The position numbers were made by a program, and so were the translations under genes. A stretch of DNA of 64,000 nucleotides. It comes from Tachypleus tridentatus. Lineage: Eukaryota > Arthropoda > Merostomata > Xiphosura > Limulidae. The number at the start of each line of letters is the position of its first letter. Within the stretch, counting starts at the first letter, position 1. The notes under the pieces are model-generated. The model saw nothing but the letters and a program-made list of their open reading frames with translations. It was not told the origin of the DNA and searched no databases. The stretch is taken from NCBI RefSeq assembly GCF_004210375.1, contig NC_134828.1:25722400-25786399 (forward strand), given 5' to 3'. Positions 3,171-59,331 of the stretch are shown one piece after another.

Positions 3171-3227
3171 ATGTGGAGTGTAATTAAAGTTGCGACGATT
3201 TTAAGATTATTGCTTCTAGTTTTACAG
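3171..3227 (+). CDS. PIGV: PIGV coding exon 1
   Basis: A 19-codon exon starting MWSVIKVATILR and ending VLQ at a GTATTATG donor. It supplies the hydrophobic N-terminal segment that PIG-V proteins have just before the F-N motif at the start of exon 2. It ends in phase 0, matching the phase-0 acceptor at 8905. It was too short to appear as a long open frame. Upstream in-frame stop at 3153-3155. Confidence 0.85.
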
Positions 3228-6200
3228 GTATTATGAAGGTTTTAATTCTATAATAATACCTGTTCCATAATGATCACCTTCTTAAAAGCTTGTTTTGTTA
3301 CAGATTTTAAACATAAAAGTCGTTTTGCTCATTAAACCTACAATTTTATGTTTCGTCGATACATTCAGTCTAATGTCAAATTGACTGGTATTGGTGCTTG
3401 TAACGCTGAATAGTAATACGTTTAACGCAAACTTCATTTTTTATGGGCTTATTGCAACTGGAATATTTGAACTTATTATTTTTAACAGGTCAAAAGCAAG
3501 TGGTTGTGGACTACTTTGATAATTTGTGCCATCTAATAAAATTCAAGTATTTTCCATCCACGATAAAATATATATAACTAATCTTGGTCTTACTAATTAC
3601 GAGTTGCGCAGTTCATCCAGATATTAGCTTATTCATATGTATTTATTATCATGTAGTAATATTCCAATATTCATTTGCAAAAAATCTGCCCTAACTACAG
3701 CGAAATTTGGACTGTTATTTTTGTAAATCATAATTTTTCTCATTGTAGTTTATAAGCATTAGGTCTTAAATTAAAGATTGGACTAAACAGTAAATGTATT
3801 TAACACAGAGAAAGTTAGTTTTACATGGTCAAAATGAGTTATTGTGGTAGCCATAATTTGCATTAGAGACGTATCTAATACAAGTTTTCATGTATCATCA
3901 ATAGTGAACTTGTAAAATAAAGTACATGCATTTATAAAAGTTTATTTTAGGTGTAATGGTTCATTCAGTTTTTTGTAGGATAATGAGTACAACATATAAG
4001 ACAAAAATAAGTAAAACAGCTTGTTTCGTAGCAACAACTTTTGGGGCGACAAGACACTTTTCAACAAAACACAGTATAGGATTATTTACAGATATTTAAA
4101 ACACCATAATATGCATAATTGATGTTTGCTATCATATAGTAAACATGTATTGTGTAAGGGTATGCCAAAATTCATGTGAATCATGTAACTGTCATTTCCT
4201 TTTTGCTGATATAGTATTTGACAATGACACTGCATATGAAGTCCTTTATTAAGAATGAAGGTTCAATAAGTGTTTGTTGTAAAGAAACCCCATTACTTAA
4301 CACTTTTCTTATTATATATATATGTATATAAACTTTTTAATAGAATATTTAATCTTATAAAGCTTGAAACAATTGTTCAATAAATGTTTGAAGGTGAGGA
4401 GAATCTATTAATTAACATTTTTGTTTATTCCATTTAACAGTGTAGCAATACAAGGCACAAGCCTTGTATGTAGACATTTTAATAGAATATTTCATTTTAT
4501 AAAGTTTGAAAAAATGTCATTCTTTTGTTTTTTAAATGTTGTTTAAAATGCAGTTAAAAATATCAACTTTCACCCTGTTCATTTGTTATCAGTTGCTTAA
4601 GGCAGAATTATTGAGGTAGAGAAAAAAAAATTTGTATCTAGGCCTACATGCCTGTTGTCTCTGTAAATGAACTATAGAAATATGGTATTGGGTGAGATTT
4701 TTACAATTAGTGATGTAAATAGTATTTTGAATTACTTAAGTTATTTGAAATTAGGATGAATTTTATAAAGAAGCTTAAAACTAGTTCTGTAATTTCATTT
4801 GTAGATAAGTTTTGTAGTTTTTACATTGATTAGAAAAAGAAATGAAAAAAATTTGTTTCCACATAATAACACTCTACATGCATACTTGTTTTAAGCTTAA
4901 ACCTTTCAATATGTTGATGGCAAATATTATTGTAAGAAAAACTGAGTGTGAATTTTGCACATTGTTTCAAGATACAACAAAATAAAATGTATAGATAATT
5001 AAAATGATGTTAAGATAACTTTTGAATATGAATTTTACTGTTTTAGTAAGAAGTTGTTTTCTGAGATTTAGAAGTAAATATAGGAAAAAGAAAATACTGT
5101 TATGATAATTAAATTATTACAGTTATTTGATAATGCTACTAGTTTTATGGTTGAAGATTCGGCCATGGATATTTTTTTTTAAACAAAAATTTTAATTTTT
5201 AAGCTGCATGCTTATGGAGTTGATAAAAAAAATAAGGGAAACTGAATTATTATTCGTATTATAAAGCAAAAAATTGTGGTATATAGTTTTCTGAATAGAA
5301 GAAAAAAAACAATCCAATAGTGCATGAGGTTACTAAAGTGCCATAGAAACCTGTTTCTGAAATTGTTTGTCATTTGTATGAATTATCCTCCTAGCAGCTT
5401 AGGGTTTAATTAGTTCAACTTGCTGGATAGTGTTCATACTGATAATTTCAGTAGACTAACTGATTTGTAAACTTTGAAATGTATGAAGTTGTATACAGAA
5501 ATTTGCAAAAGAAAACTCTTCTCTGAAAAAGAAATATAGAACAGAAGAGGGACCTTAGGTCATAGTTGTGGTGACTAGAACCAAGTATCTTGAGATTCAT
5601 CTTTAAATATTTGGAATCTGAGAACATTAATCCCTAAATTACTGATCTGAACATTGTTGGCTACCAGTGGAGTCTATATATATAAATTTTATGTTTATGT
5701 CTGTCATGTTGCTTATTGTATAGACTGGCCAAAAGCATCTGATGTAATTGCTTATTCTCTGGTCAAACACGTAGGAAATTTCAGCATTGATTAATGGGAT
5801 TAATTACAAATATTGATGGTATTTTTCTTTGTGTGTGTGATCTACAGAATTTCCTTAACCCAAAGATCACAAACTCTTGACCTTCTAGACCCTGCCAATT
5901 ATGGGGAAGAGACTTGTACACTTCAAGTTAAATAAAACAAGGTTATTTTTAACTTAATGTTTGCTAGAGATCTGTACTATAAAACCTTCATGCATACACA
6001 CACACACATACAAGTAGGTAAAGCAATTACGTTTACAGATATTTTGCATTATTACACTATGTAATATTACTAGAGATCTGCAAGTCACTTCTATAATTTT
6101 TAATATAAGATCTATTAGGTTTTTCAGAAATAAATGTCATTTTTGGACTGTGATGTTTGAAAAATATAAACCAGTGTTGTAAAATATGTTCTAACCAAAA

Positions 6201-9200
6201 TAAGCACCATTTGCTTCAACATACTTTTGCCAATGTGTAACGGTGCTGTTTATGTCTTTTCTGTTGCTGTAGAAATCAGAGTTTCTATGGTCGATGAATT
6301 CCCTGAAAGCTTCTTCTGCAGCTGCCTGGTTTTGAAAGCATTTATTCTTCAAAAAGTTGTCAAAGTCCTTGAAAAAATGAAATCTGTAGGGGAAAGGTCT
6401 GGAGAATAAGGTGGATGAGGCACAATCTCAATTCCCAATTCATTCACTTTTTGGAGCATCATCCTTGACACATGGGGATGAGCATTGTCATGAGGAAAAT
6501 AGGACCCCTTTGGTTGACCAGAGCTGGTTGTTTCTTGCACAACTTTTGATGCTTTTTGGCCAATTCTTGACAGTATTTGTCCTCTGTGATTGTTTCTCCT
6601 GGATTAAAAAAGTTGTAGTAAATGATGTCAGCTGCAGTCTACCATACAGTCACCATGACCTTTCTTTGGTGAAATTTGGGCTTTGGGATCAAACCATTAT
6701 GCAGATCATTTCCTATTGTTGTATGGAATCCATTTTTTTTTCATCACATGCTCTGTTCAAGAAATAGATCATTTCAATTCCACATTAGCAGCATAGAACA
6801 GGTCTCATATTTTTGATTTTGTTGATTTTCAGTCAGCTCATGTGGAACTCGCTTATCTTTTTCATCTTTTCAATCACATTCAGGTGGTTGGCAATGCTTG
6901 ATTTGCTTGTGCTTAGCTTTTCTGCAAGTTCATGTATTGTTGTACGAGTGTCTGTCTCAACTGCTTCCCTTAATGTGTTTTCATGGGAGGATGGCTTCCT
7001 TCCACAACCTTCGTGGTTTTCAAGACTTTCATCTCCATGTTAAAACCTTTGGAACCAACACTGAACTGTGCATTCAGTAACAAATCCATGGCCAAATGTC
7101 TGGTTGATGTTCTGTGTAGTTTTGGTAGCTTTTCATCCAAGTTTGAAGTCGTAGAGGAAAACCAGATGAAAGTCCTTCTTGTCCATGATGCCTTGGGGGT
7201 TGCAAAACTTTCTCTGAGTAGAGTTGAAACAGCAGACAATTAAGGCAACTTGTAAGCAACAAACGTTGGATTAAACCAACCAACCAATGATAAGTTACTT
7301 GATATTCAGCTTCTAAATGTCATCATGAGAGTTCCAACATTTATATCTGCACAATCTAATATTCTGTAGATTAGTAGTTGCATGAACGAAACAGGATGTT
7401 ACTGTTTGAGGAGTGTAGCAAGATCCTACTCAGGTTTTTGTTTGCAAGTGTGTTAATAATTGTGATTTTGTTTTGTAAGCTTGGAAATTATCACCCAAAC
7501 TTCTAGTAGGTAGCACTATTTGGAATAGCTTATTAGAATTGAGAATGGTATATATTTCTTATTTTGTTAATGTGAAAATATTTTACTCCTGAGGGAAATC
7601 TTCACCTGTCAATCCAAATTTATTGGTGTATATTGTGCTTGTTTTCACAAATCTTATTTCTCTGCCTGTAAGTTAAATTGTGTGACTGTGAGGCATAAAT
7701 AGTGTGGAAAGTGTTTTGAAACCAGTCAGGTTCATGCATTTCCAATTAGTAATTCTTCTTAAAAACCAACAAGGTCAATATGTGTTCCATCAGTAATTCT
7801 GTAGTTAATGACAGCGTTTATAAAGCTGTAGCCAGACTTCTTTTAGTTGTATTACTGTGTTTATATTTTGTCATGTTATGAATGGAACAATGTTGAGCTG
7901 ACAAAAGAAATTTCTAAAGAGGAGATACTGGAATGTTCATAGCTTAGAATTTATTTGTGTGTCTGTATGAGAAGATATTTTAATAGTTGCATCTGTTTTA
8001 GCTGAAGACTAGAAGAATTATGGATATCATTAGAGTTGGTTTTAAAGTATTCTTTTAGATGCTATGTTCACTTGTTGACTGATGCTTTAGGTAAATAATG
8101 GAAACTTGAGTATAATTAATGTAGGTCATGGTGACTTGTGTGTAGATAATATGTAATGTATTTCATTGTTATAGATGTTTTGTAAAGTCCACTTAAACTT
8201 TTATTTAGCTGGATGTCTTTTTGGTTGTAAAGTGCTAAATCTAGTTTGTATTGGTTGGTGGAAAGGGTGGTATATCATATGGACAACAAGGAACCATTTG
8301 TTCTTTCAAGGATCTCCTTGCACTCTTACCCTTGATAAAAGTAATAATTTAAGTCACCCATTATTTTCAGTAAATTCTTGATTCCTCTCTCAAGTTCTTT
8401 AGTAACTCATTCTAAACCTATCAGAAAAATTAAACAATACATCAGTTGCATGGCAGTCAGTGACAGAAAATGATACAAGCTGTCCAAAAAAACATCATTA
8501 GGTGGCATATTTGTCATCAATTTTAAATTGTACCAAATTCTTACTTGTATATCCATGTATCTAGGTTGATTCTAATAACTTCATGTTGTGTCTTAGTTTT
8601 GAAAACAAAGACAGTTATGATCTTTTTCTTTTTATCATAAAACTTCCAAGCTTAATTACCACAGTGATTCATACCTTTCACAGTGACATACTTCTGTTTT
8701 ACACTAGGGAATACAATTATTTTTTGTGTAAAGTAATAGAAAACAACAACATGTGCTGTACTTTTTGAAGTGTAACACATTTTAAAATGACCTGTTAATG
8801 TAATTGACTCTATAATTTACTATTTGGACTTGTGTGTTTTGTTTAATGTACAATAGATACATAAGATCTGAAATATCTTAAGTTGTAACTATTGTTTAAT
8901 TACAGTGGATCTTCAACCTTCTACCTGACCTTGAAAGTGATGTCTTTCACACCGTTGGTCAAGATGATGTAACTTCAGGAGATAAAATAGTTTCTTTCTT
9001 ATTTGGAGGCTTCAGACAATGGGATGCCCAGTACTTTATCCATGTTGCACAGTACGGTTATACGTATGAAAACACGCTGGTTTTTTTTCCTCTGTTTCCT
9101 TTTTTGACATACTATTTATCAAAGTTATTGTGGTGTTTGTTGCCAACACTATTCAGTCTTCATAGTGTCATTTTATTAGTAGGCATTTCACTCAATTTCT

Positions 9201-11925
9201 TCTGTTTTGTTCTTGCAACTGCTGTTTTATACAGGTTGGGAAACTTGGTCTTGCACGATAGAGAAGTTTCTTGGATTGCAGCATGCATGTTTTGCCTTAA
9301 TCCAGCATCTGTGTTTTTTAGTGCTTTTTATTCTGAATCATTATTCTGTTTGTTGACTCTCTGTGGGCTTGTGTGCGTAGAGAGAAAGATGATGTACAGT
9401 GCCTGTGTTCTATTTGGTTTAAGCACAATAACTAGATCAAATGGACTTGTCTCATCAGGCTTTGTTCTTTATGCTGAAACTAAGGTGATTGTGGGGCTAT
9501 TGCAGCTTTCTCAAAAGAAGAGTTTAGTATGGAAAATTAAATGTGTGTTTAATTGGGTGATGTCAGTTTCTCTCAAGTTAGTTGTTTGTTTTCTACCATT
9601 TTTTATGTTTCAGTTTTATATTTGGTTTAGTTTCTGTGTTTCTAATGACTTTGAGCATTCGTGGCCGGCCTCTGTAACTGACTTAGCTCACAGAAAAGGT
9701 TATAAGATTCTTAATAAAGAAAGGTCAGATTGGTGTTCTCACAGTGTTCCGTTGTCCTATAGTCATGTTCAGAGCTCACACTGGGATGTTGGATTTTTAC
9801 GTTACTATCAGATGAAGCAAATTCCAAACTTCCTTCTAGCTGGTCCAGTTGTCATACTAATAATGTATAGTGCGACACAGTATTTGGTGAAAAACAAAGA
9901 CTTCTGCCTGCATCTTGGTCTAAACTCGTGGAAATTCAGAAAAGAAGATTTTCAAACAAGGAAATACGTTTTGGATAGTGCCCAATGTTTTGTTTACATG
10001 GTTCATGCAGTAGCTTTAACAACATTTTGTTTGCTTTGCATTCATGTTCAGGTAAGGATTATCAGGTGGATATATTTGATATTCTGTATTCCAAAAAAAT
10101 CACAAAAGAAATTTAAGATTAGAATTACTTTCAGTGGAAGAAACAGTATTTCTCATTAAAACACCTAAACAATGTTGCTTCAGTTTATTTATTAATTGAA
10201 TAATTAAACTTCAGTTAAGAGAATAATTTAAAGACATGATGAGTAAGAACTAATAAATGTATTTATTTTCTCTCTCTCTTTTTTAACTGCAAATATAATT
10301 ACTGTATTTTTGTTTTTCATGAATTGTGTTTTTATTAGAAATGCCTATATACCTTCACTACCAAATGTATAATCAATACTCAGTGTGGTCAGCCATAAGT
10401 GATTTTATTTACAACCAAATGTTAATTCCTTTGTTTTATCATCCCTGATTTGTTTAAATTGTAGTTAAGAAAGTAACAGCTTTTTATGTGAGATTTATCT
10501 GAAAGTTTACAATATGTGGACACACACTTATAGATTTGTGGTCTGTATGTATATAATGGCTTAGAGTGTTAACAGCTAATTATTTCAACATATTTTAGAG
10601 GTGTTTTAAAATAATATCTCTTTGTGTCTTCGAGTATTATGGTGTTAATAAAACTAAAAGGACATTTTTAGAATAAAGAATAGAGTTATACATTATTTTC
10701 CTTGGTAGCTTATCTTGCATGTTTGTCTTTACAGTACCAATGTCAAATTCTGTTGTTAGAGAGTTTCACATTGTAGTTACTTATCTTGAATGTTAAACTA
10801 TTCTTAAGGTTCATGGTTAAAGCTTTGCAATAGGCTTTATTTGATCAGTAGACACTGTTTGGGGGATTGTATAGTGTTTTATGTACACTGTTGTCATGCT
10901 TTTCAGTTGACGGGGAATTTGTGATTATGCATGAAACAAGCAACAAGTTAATTTTTTTTCCCAAGCCTATTATGATTATGACTAAAGACTAAGGTAAAAA
11001 AAAGACTAAACCTCATAACATGCCTTTTTCTAACCCTAACTTGAGGATACAGCCCCAACAGTCCTGTCTTAAACTGCTCTTGATTTTAGTGATGTTAAAA
11101 TGTTTAAAACATACATATATTTAATTTTATTATGTATTATTATTATTATTTTATATATGGGATATAAGACTAACCTTAAACCTCCGATATTGTTCAAACC
11201 TGGTGAAATAATTTTAGATTATGGTTGGTGGTAGGATTTTCGAGGCCACATGTGGGGGGTCAGTTAGAAAGCCTCCTGTGTGACCTTTGTGCATGGTCCA
11301 TTCACAATCTACATGGCTAAATTATAAATGTATGAGAAGGTAAGTCTCCTTACAAGGTTTTATGCACTAACACTGGGGGACCTGCCTGATGAATCACTGC
11401 ATGTAATTACTACAAATAGGAATTGGTTTCTGATATATATGGGCAGGTAGCTTTCTTTGATCAAGAACTGGTAATAATAATTTTGTATTTTGTTATAGTA
11501 TTTCATATGTTCTTCAAAACTTAAGGCTTCTATGTTCTAGTGATAAATAGCTATAACTTATTTGTGTGATTAACATCTTTTGAATATTAAAAAAAAGTAA
11601 TACTTTTGTTGTTGTTTTTTCATCAGGTAACAACAAGAATAGTGGCATCTTCATGTCCAATTTTATATTGGGTGGTTGCATCACATCTTGTAGAAAATAA
11701 ACTGATGAGAGCTAACCGTGAGAAATGTAGCCAGGAAATCTCTCATAAAACCTAGATCACAGTGCTTTAATAAAATATTCTTCATACACTGTTAATGGTT
11801 TTTTCACTTTCCTGAAAGAGCAGTTTCAAAATAGCAATGCCTTAAATCAGTTGTTAATTTTATATTTTGTTATGTATTTTCTGCTTGGTACAATGTTGCA
11901 TATCAATTACTATCCATGGACATAA
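3171..11925 (+). CDS. PIGV: GPI mannosyltransferase 2 (PIG-V), 3 coding exons, frame break in last exon
   Basis: Exons are 3171-3227, 8906-10051 and 11627-11925; all introns are GT-AG and phase 0. PIG-V is a multi-pass ER-membrane GT-C mannosyltransferase that adds the second mannose to the GPI anchor precursor (known for the family). Seen here: FGGFRQWDAQYF at about residues 52-63, whose Asp59 matches the GT-C luminal acidic residue; GYTYENTLVFFP; CLNPASVFFSAFYSES (about 149-164); TRSNGLVSSGF (about 195-205); and many hydrophobic segments. Met at 3171 follows an in-frame TAA at 3153-3155. As written, exon 3 stops at TAG 11753-11755, giving 443 aa. The next frame continues to the family-typical ending LGTMLHINYYPWT and TAA at 11925. 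A one-base loss in AAAA (about 11747-11750) explains this; the total would be about 500 aa, close to vertebrate PIG-V (about 490). Identity is certain to me; the cause of the break is not. Confidence 0.93.
4260..4515. repeat. Imperfect tandem duplication in PIGV intron 1
   Basis: GTTCAATAAGTGTTTG...TTTTAATAGAATATTTAATC (about 4260-4373) is repeated as GTTCAATAAATGTTTG...TTTTAATAGAATATTTCATT (about 4375-4515). The second copy has an extra stretch containing the palindrome CAAGGCACAAGCCTTG. Confidence 0.65.
6191..7186 (-). pseudogene. Mariner-family transposase remnant
   Basis: About 330 codons long, the usual mariner size, but broken by several frameshifts and stops. The start MDKKDFHLVFLYDFKLG lies at about 7186-7136. 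Downstream are HDNAHPHVS and PHPPYSPDLSPTDF (second and third Asp of the DD34D triad), and the C-terminus HWQKYVEANGAYF followed by a stop at 6191. The N-terminal half is the most damaged. I could not place terminal inverted repeats confidently. Inserted antisense in PIGV intron 1. Confidence 0.88.
8906..10051 (+). CDS. PIGV: PIGV coding exon 2 (catalytic core and most membrane spans)
   Basis: 382 codons, from acceptor ATTACAG (8905) to donor GTAAGG (10052). It encodes about residues 20-401: the luminal loop with WDAQYF, the FFPLFPF segment, and successive hydrophobic helices with NPASVFFSAFYSES, TRSNGLV and VPLSYSHVQSSHWDVGFLRY. Near its end it carries the conserved VYMVHAVAL and CIHVQ segments. 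Reading past the donor gives a non-conserved tail (RIIRWIYLIF), so the splice at 10051/10052 is preferred. Confidence 0.92.
10052..11626 (+). other. PIGV intron 2
   Basis: 1.6-kb phase-0 intron, GTAAGG...CATCAG. AT-rich; a somewhat GC-richer stretch at about 11215-11420 may be an old repeat, but I could not classify it. Confidence 0.75.
11627..11925 (+). CDS. PIGV: PIGV last coding exon, with apparent one-base frame disruption
   Basis: Follows acceptor CATCAG at 11626. The first frame encodes VTTRIVASSCPILYWVVASH, a good match to the family, and stops at TAG 11753-11755. The frame offset by one base is open from just after TAA 11746-11748 through TAA 11923-11925. It encodes a hydrophobic helix (LLILYFVMYFLLG) and the terminal LHINYYPWT. 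The switch must fall inside about six bases around AAAACC. Possible polyadenylation signals (AATAAA) lie near 12587. Confidence 0.82.
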
Positions 11926-17992: not shown

Positions 17993-20900
17993 GTATCAGT
18001 ATTATTATTACAATTATGAAATATTATGTACTTTATTTTACTTTCAGCTTATGTGACGATACATGATGTTATTAAGCCAAACTCAATAATTGGTTAACTT
18101 GGATAAGTTGTAAATGTTACTGTAAGCAGTCTATAGACATAGTTTAAAAAATACTTTCATTTTCAACTATAATTTCTGATTTGTCCATGTGTGACGCGTG
18201 TATTATGATTGAAATATACGAGTTTCTGTTTATTGACAATGGTTTACTGTTGTTTCTCATTTGTAATTGTAAACAGTTAAATGCGTTTTGAAGAAACTGG
18301 TTCGTACTCGTATTAACACTCATTAGTTGTTCAGGAAAAATTATTTTAATTGATAAAAATGGTGTTTAGAACACATATTGTGGTAATTGTTGTGTTCCTA
18401 CTGGCTTGGTGGGTGTCTTGTTGGTACTGAATATGGTAGATGTAGTCTGATTAACATAATACATTCTTATTTGATTTTGTATTTTAAGAATTAAAATTAT
18501 TGCAGTTGATTGTTTGGAAATAATGTTAATAGTTTGTTCTGATATTATATAATACTGAAAGGTTTTTACTAATGGACTGCACCTATCTAGGAAGTGTTTG
18601 ATGATATTTTGAGCTACTATCACTGATTTTTGTCAGGGAAAGATATGCTCGAGCAGCTGAGAACATTGTACAAAACTTCCTATAAAGATGTAGTCAGTTG
18701 TACTTTAGTTTTTAAAATATACTCCTCTATTTAAACCTTTTCTGAAACAAGATGTTGTATAATTCTTGCAGTTCAAGTTTATTTGGGAGTAGATAGAAAA
18801 CTGGACAAGCATATTATTACCTTAAAGGGGAAGTTAATGCATAATAACCTATTTTGGGACAACATAGCACTCACAGGTCCATTTTGAATGCTCCATACTC
18901 TAAATTAGCTTAAAAACTTAAAGCCATCCATTATCATAAACAGTAAAACCTGTCTAAGGCAGAATTGCATGGGATCAAGTAAAATTTCCAGCTGAAGCAG
19001 GTTTTCTGGTTTAGACAGTGAATATGCATTTCCTTAATTATATATAATTTTTGAGCCGAACATTATACTTTCTTGACTCAAGGTAAGTAAGACGTTTATG
19101 AATAAAGTTATTATACTGTTTATGCTATATTTATTAGAATAAAAACAAAAATAGACATTCAAAATATATATAAGTACACAAAATTTTAAATTTATTTGAA
19201 GAAAGTATCTAATTTCAACTGTTTTTTTAATGGGCTCTCTAATGAGGTTAAAAGAGAATGCCAATTCTATGGCCTTTTCAGGAAGTTTATTTTCCCCCTT
19301 CATTTTTGCATACAATTTGATAGCATTAATATAACTTAACATTTGTGATGAAGTTCCTCACCATTTTGTTTATTTTCTGAATCTCTCGCTCTCTTACCAT
19401 TTTACAATTCTATTATAGATTTCAAATCAGTTTCTGTTAAAACATTCTTGTCAATGTTCACAAAACTTTCCACATTTACAGAATCATCTGCATCAATCTT
19501 CTCAAATCAGAGTTTGGATTTCGCTAGAATTGTCATAACAAACAACTTCTCCACAATCTCTGCCATTATCAAGAATAAACCCACAGTTTCAAAAGCACAT
19601 TCGTCTTTTACACATTTGATTAAATGACTTAAAAATACAATTGCATCTAACATGTCAATTTTCATGGTAATTTCAGATGCTCTCTTACAGTGGTCCATGT
19701 TTGCAATAATATGCTGAAGCATCAATTTTCTGTATTTCAATTTTATACGCTGTGTAATTCCATTATCTAGTGGCTGTAGAACTGATGTTGTACATGGAGG
19801 TAGAAAGACTAAATAAACATTTGAAAGTTGAACTTTTGGGTGACAATCAGTGATGTCGAGAAAACCCACTTGTAGAAAAATATATGTTTGTGAACCTGAC
19901 AATGACTGAAGAAGGTCAAAACGTTGTTCACTCCTCTACGTAAAAAATTTTCTCAACCCAAACGAACCGTTTGTATATATATATTTTTGGGTGACAAGTT
20001 GTATTATCTAGGAAAAGTAGAATGTTTCTATTTTCTTGTTCCATTCTTTTGTTTATTTGAACTGCAAAAATAATAACAGCAGAAAAAAGAACAAAATATT
20101 TAACTAATGTCCAAGAATTTATTAATATTTAAAGAAATTATTAATTAAGTAAATTAATATTTAATCAAAAATATTTTTTCCAGCTTACTCAGGTTTTAAC
20201 CCTACTTGTTGATAGATGAGGTAGGTGAAAGAGTTTTCCATCTGCATTATGCAGGTTCTGCCATATAGAGGGCCTTTCATAACAGAAATTTTAAGCTAAT
20301 GCTGCAAAATTTGAATATTTGTGGCTTGTAAAGGTTTTTGCCCTATGCAGTTTCCAGCTTAGACAAGTTTTACTGTATATACTAATCAAGCATTTTTTAA
20401 AACTTGCTTAAATTTACTGTTTCTACATCTGATGGCATCCTATTCCAAAGGCCAACCACCATGTTAGAAAAATAAAACTGTCTTAGCTGGAGATAATTCC
20501 TACTCTGCTAAAATTTATACTTGTGTCCCCTAGTCCTGCTATTTTTAATGTTAAATATAAAAAAAACAACAATGATTCATTAACATTGTCAGTTCCTTTA
20601 CAACCTCAAACACCTTAATCCTGAGGTCCTCAAACTGTGGTCCATGATAGTACTTAAGGGGGCCTGCAGTAATACATCAAATATATATATTAGTTTTATA
20701 ATGTCTTAGCATTTTATTTATTACTTTTTCAGTAAATGGTAATTTCATAAATTTGACTTTCATTCAGTATATCTGTAGATAAAACCCGTTTGCCCTACTG
20801 CTAGCAAAAGCAGCACACTGTTAAGGTTATTCCCATCTAAGTTATAATTTAAATGTTGATAAGTCATATGCATTATCTTGTATATAGTTTAATGAAAAAT

Positions 20901-23900: not shown

Positions 23901-26900
23901 AACTGCCTTGTATTCATGTCAGTGTATATTTTATTGACTTTCTTGTTGTATAATAAATAATATAGTTTCATTGTACAAGGTTTGAGGTATATTCAGAAAT
24001 TTTTCAATTAAATGAGACAAAAGACACTGATTATATATGGTGATTTTTAGTAGTCTTTTATTCACCAAAGTGAAGCTATATATATATATAAGATCTGAAT
24101 TATTCATTGGACTGTTTAAGATACTTAAAGTAGATATGAAGTCCAATCTATCATTCAATTCACTGCTTGTCGTTGATTTATACCATTTTCAGGTAATTGC
24201 ACCCCTCATCAGTATATCTTAAAAGCATACTGAAAAAACAGGCCTAGGATTCTTATAGGATAAATCAGTTCTTATACACATCTCCATTCAAATATAGAAA
24301 AAGGTTTTATTTGTAGATGCTGTTGTCATGGAACTAACAGAATTGTTATAAAAAAAAAACTTGGGTGGAAGTTATTACAAAATATTGATATTTATTTTGC
24401 TGTTTATGTTGTTGATTTTGTATACATTTTTATCTGATGTCTTTTCAGTTAAGTTTACTAAATGTGTTTTGGTTACTTTTGATTAAAATTGTAAATTGAT
24501 AAAGTTTATAATAATTCTGTCTCACATAACTTACTCTGGTTTTAAAATTCAGTTGTAGTTTTTGAAATGAATTTGTTTTTATATTTTAAAATTAACAAAA
24601 AATGGATGTCACATGGTTTTTACAAAGTTATAAAATGGTTTGATGGAAATTATTTTTCTAATATTTCAATGTTAATGCACCATGTTGTTCAAGAAACAAA
24701 ATTTAGTATTCAGCAGCAAACTGTTCTGAATGACCAGTATTAACCTACAACTGTTCCTACAGGTTCATAATTTGCATATAAACTTAATGGAGGAAGAGAG
24801 TTGTCAAATAGTCCATCCTTATTCTGCAGTCAACTAGTGCTACCAATCACTAGCAATTAGCTCATTTAATATTCTTGAAATGGGAAAAAGTTTATAAGAG
24901 TCCTAATTAACAGATTGAGGCCATATCTCAATGGAAGAACTTCAGTAATTGTTACCAAAATGCTTTGTAGATGTTTCATATTGAAGCTTCAAACACAAAG
25001 TACATTACATTAGTTTATCAAGTGTTTTAGGATGTTACCATGGAGAGCTAATTAATACTTTTACCTTCTTGTCATATATTGACTGCATTTTTAACTTTAA
25101 AACTAGTTCAGATGTCAAGGTTTTTTGGTTGAAAACTGTAGTTATGGTATAGAGTTGAGTAAATAAGAAATCAATATTGAATGTTTTGCCATTTTTAAAT
25201 ACTAATTTGGAGTATACACATGATATTAAACAAAAAATTGGTTTATAATTAATAAATTGTAATAACATATCTCATTAACTTTGCAGATAATTCTAAGTTT
25301 GGACAAAAGCTTTTAGAAAAAATGGGATGGACAAAAGGAAAGGGACTTGGAAAAAATGAAGATGGCAATCTGGAGCATATCAAAGTCTCGTATAAAAATG
25401 ACAACACAGGTAATATGATGACTTTCAACGTATCAAAGTCTTGTATAAAAATGACAACACAGGTAATATGATGACTTTCAACGTATCAAAGTCTTGTATA
25501 AAAATGACAACACAGGTAATATGATGACTTTTAAGTATGTTGTTAAAACTTAGAATTCAAAGGTGAAAATTAGAATAGTAACTAAATTATAGCCTAATTT
25601 TTCATTACAGGTTCATAATCAGCAATGTTATAGTTTCACTTTCTGTTCACATGTGGGCTCAAAGAGTGCAAACCACAGTCTCATACAAATTACTATTTAA
25701 CATGGTATTGTGTACTTGATGTCAGTTATGAACTATTCATGTTATCCTACATTGCTGATTTAGTGACAGTTCGTAGTAGATTAAAAACCAGAGGCCTAAA
25801 GTGGCCAGGTAGTTAGGGTGCTTGATTTGCAGTCTCAGGCTTGTGGGTTCAAATCTTCTCACCAAACATACTTGCCTTTTCAATCATGGGTGTATTATAA
25901 TGTGATGGTCAGTCCAACTATTTGTTGGTAGAAGAGTAACCCAAGATTTGGCATTGGATTGTGATGACTAGCTACATCTTCTCTAGTCTCTCATTGCAAA
26001 ATTAGGGATGGCTAGTACTGATAGCCCTCATGTAGCTTTGCTCAAAATTTGAAATAAACAAAACATTAAACACTGCATACAACATACAGAGAAAAAGAAA
26101 CAAACTTAAAATTTGAAGGTTCTAGAGATTATGCAAACTATAAGATGGGCAAAAAATATTTTTTGTCATACAAATGTCACCTTGTTCTCTGACACGTCAG
26201 AGTCCAAATCAAACTGGTGTTATTAATTAATTCATTATCTTGAGTACAAATGCTTTTATAATACATCTGATTTTTTGTGTACAATAGATTTGTAGAACTT
26301 ATTAAAACCTAAACATATTTTGTGTAAAAACACTTAGTGAATGTGGAATTACAATCCATGTTTCTGTAAAGGACCCATGTTGCATCGTATCAAAATTCAG
26401 GAACACCCTTGGAACTTATTGTTTATCACATTGAAATATATTACTATGGATAAACAATTATATTTAGTTTATGGAATAAGATTGTTAGCACTATGTTGCT
26501 AATTTCTTGGATGTTGAACAAGTTATTGTAATGATTCTACAGATATTTTAAGTTTATAAAGGAAAATCTTTAAGTAAAGCACTCTGCACAGATATGACAC
26601 ATTAGAGATGTGTTAATTATCTCAGCTTAACCCATGTCATCATGAGTGGATGAATCACTAGCACACCGAGATTAACTTCGTAAGTAGCAAATGTATGGAG
26701 GAGGCTTCAATGGGTAACGAAGAAAACTTTTAATATATATTTTGACAAAATTATGCCATTATTAGGCTTTGCCAAAACATTGTTCCTTTATTACACATTC
26801 AAGCCCATCTTCAAACTTTTATTTGCCAAAAAAGTAGGTTCTTTTTTATTAAATTCAAATTTTAATTCAGAGTTTGTTTTGGGTAACGTAATATTGTGTA

Positions 26901-29900
26901 TATTATGAGTAATGTAACACATGTTACAAGTGCTCTTATCATTTAATTATCTTCTTGTATGGGAAGACTTGCATTAATGATCTCTAAACAACACAAAGAA
27001 GTGTAAAAATAGTTATGCTCTTGATCATGGTCAGTGTGGCTGGTGTCTCAGTTATTTACCATAAGAGTGAGGCTTGCTATATCGTTATATACATTTTACC
27101 TTATTTCAGAGCTAGTATAATTCCATGCATGTAGCCCTCTGATTGGTTGAAAGTGAAACAAATATATTCATGTTTATTATTTAAAACACAGTTTTATTCA
27201 GCCTATGTCTGGAAACTTGGATTTGTAAATTTATAATGATAGACATGTCACTAAGTCTGCAATGTGCTGTGTGCAGAAGGACAGATGTGAAACTCCAATC
27301 CCACAGTCTCACTAAAACACTGAACTTGAATTTTTACTTGTAAATGTAGTGTGTGAAATGCTCATAAAAAAAACATATCTTTATTATTTGGGTATCTGTA
27401 TGACAAACTAATAACTTTAATGCAGAAAGTTTAATATTTTACGTTTTTGATAACATATTAACTGTTTGTAATTCATGTTGCAAGCACTAATTCAAAACTA
27501 CATGCTACTTTCCAGTAGTTGACTTAGGTAGTAGGATTCTTTTTGTAAAATAGAAAACTGAGTGATTTCAAATGATTTATAGCTATATTTTTATTATTGT
27601 TTAACAAATGTTAAGCCTACTTCATAATTTAAAGCTACTCGATTTTTTTGATATCTTAAAGCCTGTAAAAAAAAAATGAATTAGGTTTTCCAGATATTGA
27701 TGTTTCTAACAAGTGTGTGGAAAACAATATGATTAAATTTATAATTTTATTTAGCAAACAAAACTTTGTTTTACAATTTTTTAAAGTTTTAAATATAGTT
27801 CCTGACTTAATTACAGCCAGTTCTCCACAAATTATTGCAATCATATTTTAAATTGTTTAACTAATATCAAGTACTTGCCACAATTTCAAATTTTTTGAAA
27901 TTTATTTTACTAATTCATGCACACAAATGTACTAACCTTTGTCTTTCTAACAGGTATTGGCTACAGAGGTTATGATGACACTTGGGTCACTTATCAAAGT
28001 GATTTTAATTCAGTTCTTGCAAATCTAAATGGACATGAATGCAATTCTTCCACATTCTTCTCTGATGGCATCACCACAAACAACAAATTTCCAAGTCTGG
28101 AATCAAAATCCAAGAAATCAAGAAATAGAGTTCAGTAAGCTATGAGATTTAAAATTTTGTTTTGGTTTTCATGTGATTTTTTGTAAATTATGAAAAAACA
28201 AAAATGTGACTTAAGGACAAGCAGTGTTAACCATTCACTCTCCAAGTAACCATAAAGATCACCAACGTAGTCTAAACCTTTGATACTTGTGATAGGCATA
28301 ACACTGATGACCTGTTGTTTAGTTTAGTACGTGCAAACTAACACTCGTTCAGTTTTTTCAGGTGTATGTACCACTCCCTATGTTTATAACTTTAATTTAA
28401 TTATCGTTCTAGGGGAGTTTAGTATTGGCCTTCCTTCCTCCATTTACAGTTGGTAGTGTACATGAAGGTAGTGTGGTGCCATTCCTAATTTGAAACTGGA
28501 AATCATTTTTAATTTTTACTTTATTATTACTCACAGCTTTAACATTTTTGGTTAAAAATAAACAAGTATTCAGTGCAAATAAGATGTTAATACTATTACA
28601 TCTGCTACTATTATGTGATTTAGGAAAGATTCTTTTATGACTATTAATAACTTGAGAACAGATTTTTTCCTCCTGCAAAATTCTCAAGGTTTTTAGTTAT
28701 TAGTCCTAGTTCATTTATGTTTTAGTAGCTCCTGTTTTTTTCACCTTTTAAAGACGAGGGAAATTAACTAAGCCAAAATTCATGTTTTCTCGATTCACAT
28801 GTTGTGTTATACACTAAATATTACATACTGTACTGTCTGTTAAATATTTATCTTTTAAGTGTTATAATGATAAGTAATAAGATTTTCATTTTATAGATTG
28901 AATGTTTAAAAATTACCAAATGTATGATGATTCTGTGTGTTAAATGTCTGTTTAGAAAAGTATTAGATTTTGCCTAAGAATAAGTGACTTGACAATTTGG
29001 TATTTATTTATTACATTATTTCATTTTTCACTGCCTATACCTACTCCCAGTGGCAGAGATGCCAAAAACCAGGTTTCAATATTTGGGCAGAGCACCAGTA
29101 ACTCATTGTGTTGCTTTGTGCAGAACTACAAACAAACATCATTTTTTTTTGTTCAAACTGATCTCACATGAGCAGATTTAGTCAAGAGAATCAAGTTATC
29201 TTTAGTTTGTCTACACTTGAGGTAGGAGTGTAAAATTAAAAAAGCAAACTCTGAACTAGTAGCATTGGTTTGATAGTTGATGTTGATTACAGAATGAAGA
29301 TTATGATACTTACCTGGTGAGTTCCAGTATACTGTCCAGAGGTAAAATTCAGGTACTTTTCATAATAACAATTTTAAGTTCAGTCATTAATTACTTTGAT
29401 AACTGTCTCTTGACGATAACCATCTGTAACAGTTGTTACATTTTTATTTTATAGTAAATTTAGATATAGAAAAACCTACAGGTTCGGATAAAAGACATTA
29501 TGCAGCTATGCATTTGGTACTATACAGTTAGTATCATTGGTATTATACAGTAGGTACTATATGGTTAGTATCATTAGTATTATATAGTTGGTAGTATATG
29601 GTTAATATAATTAGTATTATATAGTTGGTAGTATATGGTTAGTATTATTAGTATTGTACAGTTGGTACTATACGGTTAGTATCATTGGTATTGTACAGTT
29701 GGTATTATGCGGTTAGTATCGTTAGTATTATACAGCAGGTACTATACGGTTAGTATTATTGTATTATATACGATTAGTATCATTCTGTCGATATTCTAGA
29801 TAAAAAAAATTTCCAATATTATTATCTGTACAACCCTTCAGAGGAGGGAAAGAAGAATGTACGAATAAAAAATGTACATTCTTAAAAAGGACAAGAAACA

Positions 29901-32900
29901 GCTTTCTACCAATAAAGCCAATTCAAAGAATGCTTCTAACAGCATTCCTTTTTGTCATAAAGAAAATGTTAAACTGTTCACCAAAATCCCTTTATCTCCT
30001 AATGAACAGCCTGAAAAACACAACTAATACACTTAAGCCTTCTCAAACTAACAGATCTGTTGAAAATAACAGTAACCTTAAAATGTGCAAATAACAATGG
30101 ACAACTCCGACATATCTCTAACATTGTTAATATTTCAGACATAACTCTCTCCAAATGAGAACTCAGTCTACTTAGTAAAGGTCTCGGCTTCTGCCCAAAT
30201 AATGTCTATATTAATGAGCTCAAACTTTTCTCTGACTTTCATAAATTTTCTAGAAAATTAAAGACTTTGTGAAGTTTTTCACAACAAACCCAACTGAAAA
30301 TCAACATTCACCTAACTTTAAAGAAAGGTCCTTATGGATACCAGCACCAAACAGAGAACCACTTCTCGAGAGCTATGTTAAAGTTGTAGAAAATGACATA
30401 ATACAGACCTTAAAATCTTCCAAGCAATGTGTTAATAACGTTAACCAAAATAAAAGAAATGCTTTAAACAATCTTAAATCGAACAACAATATCATAATAG
30501 AGCCAGCAGACAAGGGTGGAGCTATTGTTATTTTCAACAAAGATGACTATCATGGAAGCCAACCAGCAACTAGAGGATATTAATTTCTATAAAAAACTCT
30601 TGCACGATCCTACAACTCAGTTGATTAAAACCATAACTGATAAACTTAAAGAACTCCTCAAATACAATAAAATTAACAAAGAAACCTTTCAGTATCTGGT
30701 ATTCAGACAAACTTTTCCTGATAATTTTTCTCTTACCTAAAATACACAAACCAAACAATCATGATCAACCCATAATTTCAAATATAAACATGGCTACTGA
30801 AAAGAGAACATTTTAACAGTCATAAGTCTTCTATTAACATCGATAAAGATCTCCCTGTCGCTCAACACTTCAACCAACATGGTTACTCTATTAACAATGT
30901 TACCCTCACTGACATTGAAATAGGATCCAAAACTAAAGCAGATAAAGAAACTTATTGAATTGTCAAGCTAAACACTGATCAAACTTTCAGAATTATTCTA
31001 GATCCAGGAATCAGTGATCTCTGGTGGTCATTAGTTTCATCTCTGTTAGAAAAAGAAAAATAACTTTTCTTATTTTTGTCATGAAATAGCAAAGTTGATT
31101 TTTTTAATTGATTAATATAGCATATCTTTTTCAATCACTCTCCAGGTATTATCTTTATTTTATTTTACTTAAACACCTAAGTTTATTTAAAACAAAACAA
31201 TAAACATACATTTTGCCATTTCTGAACTAAAATATCACTAACACCTTTTCACATACACACTCGCCATCAGCTATATTGCACCGGAAATGAGACGCTCACA
31301 ACAGTACACAGAGAAATAAACAATTCCTGAAAAACCGTATTACCCCCATGGTGTCACTAAACACCCTCTATATATATTACTCGTCTAATCACGCTACCAC
31401 TCCCAGTTTGCGCCTGAAGAAGAAAGGTCCATATTTTGAAAGCACTCTGGTTATAGGGTTTCTATTTCATTTTTATCAAGACTTCTTGGATTTATGTGTT
31501 TTTAGAACATCATGGTAAGTATCATTAGTATTATATAGGTAGTAGTATATAGCTAGTATCATTGGTATTGTACAGTTGGTAGTATATTGTTAGTATCATT
31601 GGTATTATACAATTGGTACTAAAGAAAGTATTGCAAATTATAAGAACTCGTGGAGCATATTAAAAATGAATGTAACAACGTTTCAACCACTATACCTTCT
31701 ATATTCAGTGCTGAGGGGGGTGTTTTAACCCATTCATGACAGGCTATATCATCATAATTATTGACTCCCATTCAAAATTTTATTTAACTATTATTTTATA
31801 AATTAATGTCAGTAAATTTGGTATCAAATTATAGATTATGATTCAAACTTTAATATTATATGAGTTAACTTCGTAATTTAAAAGTAAATAGTAAAATAAC
31901 ACAAATATGGGTTTCAGTGAGTCACATGGTATGTTGGATGTTGCACTATTTAAAATTAGATGTTTGTGATGTCAAAATACTAAGTCTGTGGTTTCATACA
32001 AATTAGGAACAAAAATTACTAGTAATATAAAGTTAGAATATAAAGTAAGAACTTCATATTGTTTTTATTTTGTTGAGATATGGTTTATCTACTGAATCAA
32101 ACACAGTTGCCCTGTTCACCCTGTTTCATTTTTGGAAATGGTTCCTTATATACATTTACTTCAATATATGATGTGAATAACCTATTGAATACTTCTAATC
32201 TCTCCTTTGTGGTTTTATCTGCCATTTTAATCTGTCAAAAGACTACCATGTTCTTTCAAACCAAGATTTAAAAAGGTAGGTTGTGTCTTTAGTCTATTTA
32301 AAGTTTTGTATTTGTTTGATCCTAAAATACAACTTGGTTATTTAGCTTGATAAATTTTTATGGAATTCTGTGGTATTGGTATAATAATTTATGATTTTTT
32401 GGTTATTCAGATATATATACAACCTAAAAAATATTTCGCATTCTGCCTGTGCAAAATTTCAAAAGGCATAATGATCTATGTCCAGCAACAACCGAGTTCA
32501 AAGGTCATAGTTAGAAGAGATAATTGTTTACTTTACTTCTTTATTTATTGTTGTTATATTTAAAAAAAAAAAGTTTAATTTATTTGTAGATAGTAATAAT
32601 CTGTGTATATATGGAAGATATAATAATTGAAATATGACAGTATATCACAAAATACTGGTCTACTAAAACACAGCCAAGAGAGGTCAGTTGTGTATTATGT
32701 GACGTGAGTGCGTGCGCACCTCATCAATGCAACTTACGTAATGTTAGCTAGATATGACTGGAGGGTAAATATAATAAAAATATACAAATATATAAGGTTA
32801 TGAGACTCAAGCTATTTAGTTTAGACATTTGTATTTGCATAATTTTTAGACATTCTAGCATGAAAAAAAGCTTAGTTTATGCTTCTTTCTTAATTTTTTA

Positions 32901-35900
32901 TGATGGTTATGAGGTCGGTCAAATTGACAGACCCACACAGTTCAGGGAGAGAAAATAACAGTCAAAATCTGAAGCTTCACTCAAAAGAAACATTTGAAAT
33001 GTATTTAGGAAGTTTTAGAGAGTACACAAATAATATTTGAGATTTTTGGGATGAAGAATAGTTTTTAATCATAACATGAAAATCACTTTATACTCTAGTA
33101 ACAAAACAGACTTGATATTTTCACAAACAAATCTTTAGTAAAAATACTTTGGTAAAAATTATGATTTTCTATCTACAAAAAACTTGTCATCCTTACTAAA
33201 AGTACACAAAATTTTGTGAAGGTACACTTCCTGAATCAAAAGTTGTAGTGTAAATATGTAATGTATGCAAATGTATATACAAAGTTGTGTATATTATACT
33301 AAGCCCATTGTGAAAGGGATGATACCACAGTTGATTGGGCAGTATAGGTTAAGATGCTATTTATATAATCAGTGTATAGCATGGCAATGTAACTTTGTGG
33401 ACATTAATTTGGAAGTTAGTGTTGGAAAACTACAATATTTTAAGTTCACCCTAAGATATCTGATAAACTTAAGGCCAAGTATGAATACATTTGGATTGTA
33501 AAATTACCAAAAGTGAAGTTTATCATATTAACTTTATAGGATCAAATATTATTTGTTACACAATATTTCATTTGTGTATATTTTACATTTAAAGTCACTA
33601 ACATGTTTTGAGCACCTCCAGTGACACAGTGGTATGTCTTCAGACTTGCAATGCTAGAAATAGGGTTTTGTTACCTATGGTGAGTGGAGCACAGATAACC
33701 CACTGTGTAGCTTTGTACTTTAAACTAAAACATATTACAGATATTGATCAGAATCAGAAGTACTTGGTCTGGCATGGCCCATTGGTTAGGGCACTTGACT
33801 CAGAATCAACGGGTTGTAACCTCAAATACTGTTTGTGAAAGTGTTCACCCTGACAGGTTTGGGAGCATTATAAGGTGATGGTCAATCTAACTTTTCTTTG
33901 GTGAGAGAGCAGCCTAAGAGTTGACAGTGGATAGTGTTTACGTGCTGCCTTTCATCTAATGTATCACTTCAAAATTAGGGACAGCTTCTGCAGATAGAAC
34001 CCTTTGGTAGTTTTTCACTAAATTCAACAAACAAATTATCAAGATACTTGAAATCAATTTAATTATTGTTTTAGAGTGATAGCTAGAGATTAAACTATTT
34101 TCTAGGTAAAATTAATGTACGCTATCTTTTGCCAAATCCTGTATATCCATAGAATATTTGAAAGACCATGAAAAAAGTTTCATATTGTTATTTTTAAATC
34201 AGATATTGAGCTTACAATTGCACTTCATCAGAAGTTGTTTTAAACAATATTCTTTTGTCCATTTTATAAGAAAACATTTATCATATTATTAAAGTTTTGT
34301 GTGTGGAAAAAACGTGTAACAATTCCAAATGAGTCTTTTTAACCCCTCAATTATTTTCAGTTTAATTTTTAAATAGATATTTGAGTAAACATCCCCTGAA
34401 GAGAAAAAATTTTTTTTCAGCTACCACAAGTTTATTAAGGGAAAAGATGTCAGTCAGTACAGTTCAGATGACATTGCATCAATTTTTGGAAACAAAAAAA
34501 AGAAAGCTGTTGATTCTGCCTTTGAAGAATCATCAAAGGTATGGCCTCTCTCTTCCTTTTTTTCCCTGACAGAATATGTTATTTCTTGTGTGTCTATTTT
34601 AATCCACATTAGTGTCACCACGAAACTAAAAGTTTGTAAAGTTGGTATGAACTATTTCATCTGGTGATAATTTATTGATTCATTGTATTTCATGATATGT
34701 TACACCAAGTTAACTTTATTAGTCAGTTGTATTTTGTTCTTTACCTCAAGTTGGCCTAAGGTGGAAATGTTGCAAAAGTAAATCCACCTAGTCTGAAGTA
34801 AGTTTGCTGTGAAAGCTAGTGGGATGTTAATTTGCTAGAGTTGTGAGGAAGCCATTGAAATTACAGTCTAGAAGACCAGGAATCTTGCCTGGGGAAGAAT
34901 ATGATCATCTTGATCTCTCTTTTTCCATAGTTATGAATTAATATTCATAAACAGTTTTAATTGGTTATAGCAAACCTATTAACTAGTTAGGAAAGGTTTT
35001 AAAAATTTCCATGTGTGATTAATTTTATTTTTTTGTGATACATTTTTTTTCATCAGGATAACTCTGATGTAGAAAATATATCAAATGGAATGGAACTCCA
35101 GGATAACATTAAGACCTTTCACAGTGGGACAAGTGTTCAAGATTATTTTGCTAAGAAAATGGCAGAAATTTTAAAAGGAAAAAAAGAAAAAGCTGGTAAG
35201 AATATGACTAACATGTCTTTTTGTGCCTATACTTCAGGGGTTGATTGTGCTTTGTGTGTGTGCGTGCGTGCACATACTTTTCAGGGGTTGATCGTACATA
35301 TTTTTTGTGTGAGCACTTACCCACTTCAGGGACCAATTGGGTAGTTTTTATTTGTGTACATTTGTACTTTGAAGAGAGAACAGAAAATATTAAGATGGGG
35401 AACCTTTTGTTTTGAAAGAAGAAACAGTAATACTTCTAAACCTGTTTTAAAACCATGTCAAATAAGTATTATGTATAAAAGATTTATTGTGATTTTTATA
35501 TATACACACACATACGCACACAACTTTTGTAGGTCTTAACAAATGGCAAAATGCATTTTGGTTACAGTTATTTAGATCAATGTTCTGTTTAGTTATTTTG
35601 CTTTTGGCAGTTCCTTATAATTTTAAAACACCATTTGAAATGTATATTCAGTTTTTCTTTATTGTTTGTTTTAGCGTTTTAATTCAGTGTTTAACATACA
35701 TTTATGTAGATTATATCATATATACCAAATCAGTTAACCTCTTTAATCAATAATCTCACTGTTACAATTGCAGAACTCTGTTCAGAAGAAAGAGAGACAA
35801 ATGGAGTGGGAGCAAACAATTCCGGAGATGATACATGTAGCGATGAACATTTAAATAGATCTCTGGAAGCCAGTTATGATGGATCGATGAAATCAAACGG

Positions 35901-42499: not shown

Positions 42500-44350
42500 G
42501 ATGGAAAGAGACCACATTTAAGATTACTACTGACGAGTCACAATTACGTATTTTCTTTATTTCGTATTTGAGTGTTTTCTATGGTTATGTTGTGTTTATT
42601 TGACTTGCAGTGTTCGAAAACGTGTGAAGGTGACTTTTTATGTTATTTGAATCTGGTTTCCATTTTTCTACTTGTTTCTCCAATATAAAAGTCGTGGCAG
42701 TTATCACATTGTATTTTATAAATAATGTTGGTGTGGTGTTTGTCAGTGTAGTTTTTACATAGTATAGACCTCAGTTTTGTGCCTGGTTTTTGAATAAATG
42801 TGGTATTAACTGGGATGTCATATTTTGTTACTAGTTTTTGCGAAATGTTGGTTATTTGTCTGCTGATGTCGGGAACATATGGTATGCAGCAGTATATGGT
42901 TTCGTGATTTTTTTGATTCGTGAGATATATTTACTTTTGTTGGTTGATTTTGCTTTCTGTCTAGGTGTGTGCGTATAATGTTTTCTATGGTTTGTGGAGG
43001 AAACTTATTGATGTTGATGAAGTATTGTTTTATTTTGTCTAATTCATCGTTAATTTAATCTGGTGAGCATAGTTTTATGGCTGTGTTTATTTGGTTTCTT
43101 AGTATGTTGAGTTTTTGTTTTGTTTCATGTGCTGAGTCCCAAGGAATGTATAGTCCAGTATGGGTGATTTTTCGGTGGATTTCTGTTTTGAATTGTGTGT
43201 CGGTTCTTGTAATTTTGAGGTTAAGAAATGATATTTAATTGCTTTTTTTCTGTTCACATGTGAAGTTAATGTTGGGATGTATAGAGTTAATGTGATTGAA
43301 AAAATTAAGTATGTGTTCTGTAGATTTGAATCCCGCAACCGTGTCATCTACATATCTGTACCAGTATAGTGGTGGATGTAATGCTGTGTTAATTGCTTGT
43401 GTTTCAACTTGTGTCATAAAAATATTGGCTAGAACTGGTGATACTGGGTTGCCCATGCTTAGGCCATTTGTTTGTATATAGTTTTGGTTGTTGAACATGA
43501 ATTTTGTCTTAATCGTGGTAAATTCTATAAGGGTTGCTAATTGGTTGCTGGGAATGTCTATAGTTGGGTTAGGGTCTCGGATATAGAGTTCTAAGGCTAT
43601 CTTGCAGGCTTCAGCGGTTGGAACTTCTGTAAAGAGGGATATAACATTGAAACTGGCCATTAAGGCTTTATGATTAAGTTGATTTAGATTAGACTTTAAA
43701 TTAAAAGAGTCTTTGATGAATGAGCTGGCTGATGTTACATATTTGGAGAATGCCCATACTATGTATTTACCAAGATTGTAATTAAACGATTCATATGTGG
43801 ACATTATTGGTCGTAATGGACAATCTGGTTTATGAGGTCTGGGGATGCCGTATATTTGTGGTGTGCGTGAGTCGGTCTTGCGTAGGTATGAATAAAGTGT
43901 TTGTGAAATTGTGTTGGCTTTTTTCATTTTTAGTAGTATTTTGTTTAGTTGCGTGTTGTGTGTCTTTGTTAGATTTGTGTGTATTGGTTTAAATTTGTTC
44001 GTGTCTGATAGGATGTTCTTCATTTTTTGGATGTATTCATTCGTGTTCATTATGACTATAGCGTTGCCTTTATCTGCTTTTAGAATTTTTATGTTTTTGT
44101 CTTGTTTTAGGTTTTTAATGGAATTAATTGTCTCTTTTTGTAAGATTGTTTTTTAGTTTTCTGTTTTGTGAAATTATGTTAATGGTTTTGTGAGAAAATT
44201 CTTTGAAAAAATCGTTTAAAATATTGTTTTTAGGTGTTTCTGGAAAATATAAATTTTTAATTTTACCTGGGAAGTTTGGCTGTTGGATGTCAATAAAATT
44301 ATCTAAGTTGTATTTTCTATTAAAATTATGTGCAAATGTACAAAAGCACT
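42500..44350 (-). mobile_element. Penelope-like retroelement with reverse transcriptase and GIY-YIG nuclease
   Basis: Encodes, from right to left, an N-terminal region (FPGKIKNLYFPETPKNNILN, about 44290), KADKGNAIVI (about 44085-44055), IYGIPRPHKPDCPLRPIMS (about 43850), FNVISLFTEVP, GLSMGNPVSPVLANIFM (about 43465-43415), YRYVDDTVAGF (about 43370-43335), a connector, KPGTKLRSILCKN (about 42770), then CDNCHDFYIGETSRKMETRF (about 42710-42650). The last is the GIY-YIG endonuclease typical of Penelope-like elements. Few disruptions: stops near 43236, 43058 and in the GIY-YIG helix near 42645. Element ends and duplications not resolved. Confidence 0.9.
43235..44050 (-). pseudogene. Penelope-like reverse transcriptase, uninterrupted part
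   Basis: 271 codons open from Met at 44050 to a stop at 43235, covering the fingers and palm including the catalytic YVDD. The upstream coding sequence is in the same element but another frame; the downstream connector resumes after the stop. The stop after CEQKKSN looks like a point mutation, because coding similarity continues (NLKITRTDTQFKTEIHRK). Confidence 0.88.
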
Positions 44351-58079: not shown

Positions 58080-59331
58080 TCGGGTCATCCCATAAGTAAT
58101 GTCCGAATATTTAATACAGAAAGTGCATCATCATTTCTGTCTTTGTAGAAGGCTTTAATGACTAAAATATGTAGTAGGACGTGTATAAAAATGTTCAGAC
58201 AGATAAAATAAACTAACCCAACTCCACGTTTTCAGATTAATAACCAAATAAACCTTCATGAAGATGAATGTACTTGAGTAGCATATTAGGCATATAATGT
58301 TTTATGAGTTTAAAAAGGCAATAGTGCAGCAGAAACTACACGAAACATTCAAGGTGTTTCTGGTGCGGAGTCTCTCAATGAAAGAAAATGTCGAAGGTGG
58401 TTTCAGAAGTTCAGATCAGGTTAGTACAGCTTAAGTGATTCGCTACATTCAGGTCATTCTGTTGACTTGTTGCTGGCTGCACTTGATGAAGATTGTGCTG
58501 TAACAGTTGAAGAATTCAAACCTTTCAACAGTTCACCGTCATCTACAACAGCTTGAAAAGGTGTCAAAACTTGGGAAATGGGTCTTCCATGATTTGACAG
58601 AAACCAAACTTAGAGCAAAAGTGGACATATGCAATTCTATTCACCTTCGTGAACGTAACTCACCTTTTTTGGACAGGTTAGTGACTGGAGATAAAAAATG
58701 GATATCTTATAAAAGTTTAAACGCTGAAGAGAACAGCGTAAAGCAGGTAAACTGGCTAAAGCACAGCCCAAAATGGACCTCCACCCTAGGAAATTCTTGT
58801 TAAGCGTTTGGTGGGATATTGTTGGTGTGATCCATTTTGAGTTGCTGCCACTCAATGTAACGTTTACATCAGACTTCTATTGCCAACATTTAGAGTGCTT
58901 GAATGTCGCACTGAAAGAAAAGAGGCCTACTTTGATTAATCGTAAAAGTGTTGTGTTACACCAGGATAATGTACGGCCCCATACAACAAGGATCACATCT
59001 GCAAAGATTGAAGAGCTAGACTGGGAAAACTTCCTCATCCTCCTTATTTTCCAGACCTTGTCACATCTGATTATCATCTATTCCAAAGTTTGCAGAACTA
59101 TCTTGATGGAAAAGAACTTGGAACACATGAAGATGTCAAACTACCCTCTCTACATTCTTTTCCTCCAAACCCCAAGAATTTTATAGAAGTGACATTTAGA
59201 AGCTTGTGAATCGTTGACGGGAAGTAATTAATAATAATAGAACATATTACTGATTAAATAACATTAAAAGCGTTTGAAATCCTTTCTCTTTTTTGAACCT
59301 AAAATCGGACATTACTTAAGGGATGAACTGA
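58080..59331 (+). mobile_element. Mariner element with inverted repeats and TA duplication
   Basis: Left end TCGGGTCATCCCATAAGTAA then TGTCCGAAT; right end, inverted, TCAGTTCATCCCTTAAGTAA then TGTCCGATT. TA at 58078-58079 and 59332-59333. 1252 bp, the usual mariner size. Intact ends, dead coding sequence. Confidence 0.93.
58296..59215 (+). pseudogene. Mariner transposase, multiply frameshifted
   Basis: HIMFYEFKK (about 58288) begins the helix-turn-helix region; WFQKFRSG (about 58400); TVHRHLQQLEKVSKLGKWVF (about 58530-58590); PFLDRLVTGDKKWISY (first Asp, usual TGDEKW); LSVWWDIVGVIHFELLP (about 58800-58850); VVLHQDNVRPHTT (second Asp); PHPPYFPDLVTSDYHLF (third Asp, in another frame near 59030-59085). 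The three catalytic Asp residues survive but lie in three different frames. Not functional. Confidence 0.92.

Follow-up and report, generated by a model that had tools for sequence, protein, structure and literature searches.

A plus-strand PIGV gene carries its own C-terminus in the reading frame next to the one that encodes the rest of the protein. PIGV is known as a GPI-anchor sugar transferase, the enzyme that adds the anchor's second mannose. As assembled, the gene encodes 443 residues and is ended by a TAG at 11753-11755. In exon 3, frame 2 stays open from a TAA at 11746-11748 to the next TAA at 11923-11925, its product ending in ...LHINYYPWT, and it is in this neighboring frame (11749-11922) that the last ~56 PIGV residues sit. 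An earlier note on this DNA had placed the two facing stops and the AAAACC between them at these same positions and in these frames, correctly. We put the chances at about even that the deposited sequence (assembly or read consensus) carries a one-base indel that causes the break, in which case the true protein would have ~499 residues. We infer that the base is missing from the data rather than from the animal.

Identity and exon-intron layout of the PIGV gene

In the window, by which we mean the whole 64,000-nt stretch of DNA that was analyzed, the gene lies on the plus strand, with coding exons at 3171-3227 and 8906-10051 and a third from 11627 onward. The features discussed here are as follows.

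3171-3227, plus strand: PIGV coding exon 1 (MWSVIKVATILRLLLLVLQ), donor CAG/GTATTA
3228-8905, plus strand: PIGV intron 1, 5678 nt, GT-AG, containing minus-strand transposase gene remains
8906-10051, plus strand: PIGV coding exon 2, 382 codons, stop-free, phase 0 donor CAG/GTAAGG
10052-11626, plus strand: PIGV intron 2, 1575 nt, GT-AG
11627-11755, plus strand: PIGV exon 3, frame 1 part, terminating at TAG 11753-11755
11718-11755, plus strand: candidate GT-AG stretch, 38 nt, donor ACC/GTGAGA, acceptor CTAG, whose removal restores the frame
11747-11752, plus strand: AAAACC, the sole site where a single point indel joins both frames
11749-11925, plus strand: exon 3, frame 2 part with its stop, encoding the last membrane helix and the family C-terminus LHINYYPWT

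The 418-residue open reading frame (ORF) containing exon 2 matched Pfam family PF04188, Mannosyltransferase (PIG-V), with an E value of 2e-77; the curated cutoff for this family (Mannosyl_trans2) is 22.4 bits. Exon 3 begins at 11627, preceded by TTCATCAG, and carries on the same protein. Exon 2 joined to the frame 1 part of exon 3 reached 291 bits, covering profile positions 48 to 403. When the 499-residue PIGV was read across the break, with an X at the junction, the score was 307.4 bits and the match ran from position 4 to position 443 of 443. The complete profile was covered only when the frame 2 tail was joined; the assembled frame ends at 403-404. Read across the break, the protein shares with PIGV (GPI mannosyltransferase II) both the full profile and the family's form, a long hydrophobic multihelix protein with its last helix near the C-terminus. 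In contrast, the assembled protein has only 443 residues and ends short of the last helix. A Kyte-Doolittle scan of the read-through placed that helix at residues 472 to 495, although 11 separate helices were not resolved. No further stop or frame break was seen across the 1499 nt of PIGV coding sequence. These results bear out the earlier assignment of the gene to PIGV as well as the forecast of about 500 residues (499 with the tail versus 443 as assembled).

PIGV is listed as CAZy GT76 in published work (PMC6801728). A PDB sequence search returned one weak match, the mycobacterial-type arabinosyltransferase 7bvf (E value of 0.021). Pattern scans for relatives in two collections, viral_contigs and genome_contigs, which cover viral or prokaryotic sequences only and are silent on animals, gave 3 and 29 pattern matches, respectively, and 0 relatives.

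Exon 1 was assigned by its contribution to the profile match. With exon 1 placed ahead of the opening 160 residues of exon 2, the PF04188 score was 122.6 bits instead of 115.1, and the match began at profile position 4 instead of 47. The candidates tested were 4 of 36 from one list plus one further open stretch (7778-7855), and 3171-3227 gave the best gain among them (7.5 bits); the other upstream candidates (n = 4), joined to exon 2, scored 119.2, 116.6, 115.1, and 114.7 bits. The stretch at 7778-7855 on the plus strand (MCSISNSVVNDSVYKAVARLLLVVLL) resembles the PIGV N-terminus and scored 119.2 bits with exon 2 (+4.1), but it has no GT at the join and was rejected. It is the only serious competitor for exon 1 despite the absent GT donor, and its likeness to the PIGV N-terminus is probably due to chance.

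The window holds several other features. Within PIGV intron 1, transposase remains in several frames lie on the minus strand at 6349-7239; the matches are weak (DDE_3 with an E value of 0.00083, below the curated cutoff, and a weak HTH), and we take the element to be mariner-like. Further fragments include a Transposase_1 (mariner-type) fragment in overlapping frames at 58504-59186 on the plus strand (E value of 8.5e-19), a reverse transcriptase ORF of 305 residues at 43235-44152 on the minus strand (RVT_1, E value of 3.5e-11), and a DDE_1 transposase fragment at 19507-19935 on the minus strand (E value of 5e-12). A second gene lies downstream of PIGV on the same strand (25286-36984) and contains a G-patch exon (PF01585, E value of 3.9e-15), with open stretches after it at 27953, 34389, 35039, and 35710-36984. 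From its layout this gene is presumably PINX1; its first exon was not found, and the phase of the 25409/27954 junction was checked by eye.

The frame 2 tail is the C-terminus of PIGV

To test the tail, we attached it through an X, standing for the break, to the 98 C-terminal residues of the frame 1 protein (final T removed). On this 3′ part of the gene, the true tail raised the PF04188 score from 54.4 to 66.8 bits (+12.4) and extended the end of the match from profile position 404 to position 443 of 443, and the result was repeated. None of the 12 controls (two tails read in a wrong frame, nine shuffled tails, and one reversed tail) gave a notable gain; they scored 52.4 to 54.6 bits, with a largest gain of +0.2. 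Individually, the frame 1 tail scored 54.1, the frame 3 tail 52.4, a shuffle of the whole tail 54.3, and the reversal 54.6 bits, while eight shuffles that kept the helix block intact as a block scored 52.6 to 53.5 bits. Three controls reached profile positions 431, 440, and 435 with no gain in score, so score, and not reach, is the valid test. Since the true tail gained 12.4 bits and all 12 controls failed, the tail is genuine PIGV sequence. The frame 2 tail is PIGV's own C-terminus, as the earlier note had claimed.

Removal of the last nine residues of the tail reduced the score to 53.3 bits, indicating that the signal comes from the conserved C-terminus LHINYYPWT and not from hydrophobicity. 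The 58-residue tail by itself matched no family in Pfam; joined sequences were therefore required. Other properties of the tail were less informative. The chance of an equally long open frame is 0.030 given the composition of the tail and 0.009 given that of intron 2, which is weak evidence. In codon usage the true frame was the best of three yet negative (-11.0 versus -45.7 and -20.7), and codon usage gives the tail no absolute support. Codon-usage log-odds were also tried for placing the switch between frames and were useless, as the sign for 11717-11752 flips with the training set. The G+C content of the tail (0.292) is close to that of intron 2 (0.296), unlike that of exon 2 (0.369). Tail hydropathy peaks at 1.84 over 19 residues.

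Candidate causes of the frame break

In the favored explanation, the deposited sequence would have slipped by one base at or close to 11747-11752, through an indel introduced during assembly or read consensus. Such a slip would make the annotated frame stop early and push the last helix and the family C-terminus into the next frame. The locus looks like a single-base frameshift in a gene model, with one break, the rest intact, and a downstream frame that keeps the family signal, and it differs from that pattern in nothing. The gene is otherwise whole (all exons, GT-AG introns, profile positions 4 to 443), which counts in favor of a sequence error. Lone indels turn up in long-read consensus sequences far more often than essential single-copy genes carry a frameshift. 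Moreover, because the tail still bears the family end signature, the gene is unlikely to have spent a long time free of selection; a long-unselected gene should show further lesions, which suggests that the break is recent or absent from the animal. Residual homopolymer errors and gene-breaking frameshifts are reported to persist in long-read assemblies, in work that concerns bacterial or small genomes (PMC8812927, PMC12007338).

What speaks against a sequence error is that the run at the break is just four A's. We counted 84 homopolymer runs of at least 4 nt, 35 in PIGV and 49 in the PINX1-like stretches (the exon limits of the latter being estimated), including two of length 8, and among them only the AAAA at the break coincides with a frame break. 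The earlier note had offered an assembly error or a truncated allele as the cause. Both still lead and are not separated by the present data, but the idea of a homopolymer error is weakened by the four-A run.

A real frameshift is the second candidate. Here, one allele, or one copy after whole-genome duplication, would truly lack a base and encode a 443-residue PIGV; we regard this as a serious possibility while leaning against it. Such a copy would probably be inactive, with the other allele or copy doing the work. The layout, one lesion with everything else intact, is what a fresh null would show. Horseshoe crabs are reported to have undergone three genome duplications, and the same report describes deletion of the Unpg-A1 paralogue in 9 of 10 Hong Kong Carcinoscorpius, a loss within a population (PMC7815833). 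If the animal is a horseshoe crab, then with these duplications and the loss of a duplicate seen in a population, a redundant PIGV copy could be in the course of being lost. The published model gives PIGV 11 membrane helices and places its C-terminus in the lumen; for most GT-C enzymes, that luminal end is described as carrying family-conserved residues (PMC6801728), so loss of the last helix should matter. Against a real frameshift, the tail is undecayed, and there is no second copy of exons 2 or 3 within the 64-kb window, where matches beyond the exons themselves are at most 40 nt. Human PIGV defects are reported to cause disease (PMC7254680), and a single-copy null should accordingly be rare.

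It is quite unlikely that the truncated form is normal in this lineage and the tail a 3′ untranslated region (UTR) relic, or that some other, unlisted cause applies. The assembled frame does end at TAG 11753-11755, as this explanation has it, but the tail ends at the final PF04188 position and scores as the family end.

Splicing offers another way to join the frames. The earlier note held that the switch must lie at AAAACC, which stands for a single point indel; it ignored splicing, and removing 11718-11755 does the same. If this 38-nt stretch were spliced out as a mini-intron, the protein would read ...LMRANHHSALIKY... in one frame, the assembly would be right, and the gene would be intact. 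The stretch has GT-AG ends, its removal restores the frame with no stop, and the spliced protein scored 65.3 bits against PF04188, practically equal to the 66.8 bits for the point indel, so Pfam is unable to separate the two. It also holds one yUnAy branch-site-like word, CTCAT. Nevertheless, we consider a mini-intron improbable. Usual animal introns are much longer than 38 nt, and the remaining introns of this gene are far longer (5678 and 1575 nt). The G+C content of 11718-11755 (0.395) is exon-like, unlike that of intron 2 (0.296). In all, 27 GT/GC-AG pairs of at least 21 nt connect both frames stop-free, most of which delete conserved sequence.

The internal geometry of the stretch also argues against splicing. 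The only branch-like A lies 27 nt from the donor, with 10 nt between it and the end. For human EMD intron 5, the minimal productive donor-to-branchpoint length is reported as 46 nt (PMC11291888); the 38-nt length and the 27-nt donor-branch distance both fail this minimum, a human benchmark that is not binding for this animal. Human introns of 43 nt (ESRP2) and 49 nt (NDOR1) are reported to splice, but these are G-rich (PMC4463651). The stretch at 11718-11755 shares with these ultrashort introns its GT-AG limits and a frame-restoring length, whereas it is only 38 nt and is not G-rich. A true mini-intron at this position would be shorter than the published 43-nt human example.

Recoding, by minus-one ribosomal frameshifting or transcriptional slippage at TAAAACC, appears very improbable. 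The two frames do overlap from one stop (11746) to the other (11753), a requirement for recoding. However, an X XXY YYZ slippery heptamer is absent from frame 1 of exon 3 (11627-11752), which upholds the earlier statement on this point. Pseudoknot-free folding of the 100 nt downstream (11756-11855) was compared with that of 200 shuffles as a test for a stimulatory structure; this segment folds like the shuffles (z score of -0.47), 63 of which were equally stable or more so. Four A's are also short for polymerase slippage.

Consequences for PIGV

Both leading causes, a one-base sequencing slip and a recent inactivating mutation, are of ordinary kinds. The matter is mostly one of annotation hygiene: a gene caller would log a PIGV that lacks its last helix, although the next frame, 4 nt away, still encodes both that helix and the family C-terminus. 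If the break is real, the product would be a truncated PIGV that lacks the last helix (read-through residues 472 to 495) and the luminal end, and judging from this loss, the truncated protein would be expected to be inactive. Should the break prove real and also polymorphic, in a genome that has been duplicated, the locus would offer a minor instance of the ongoing loss of a GPI-anchor gene copy.
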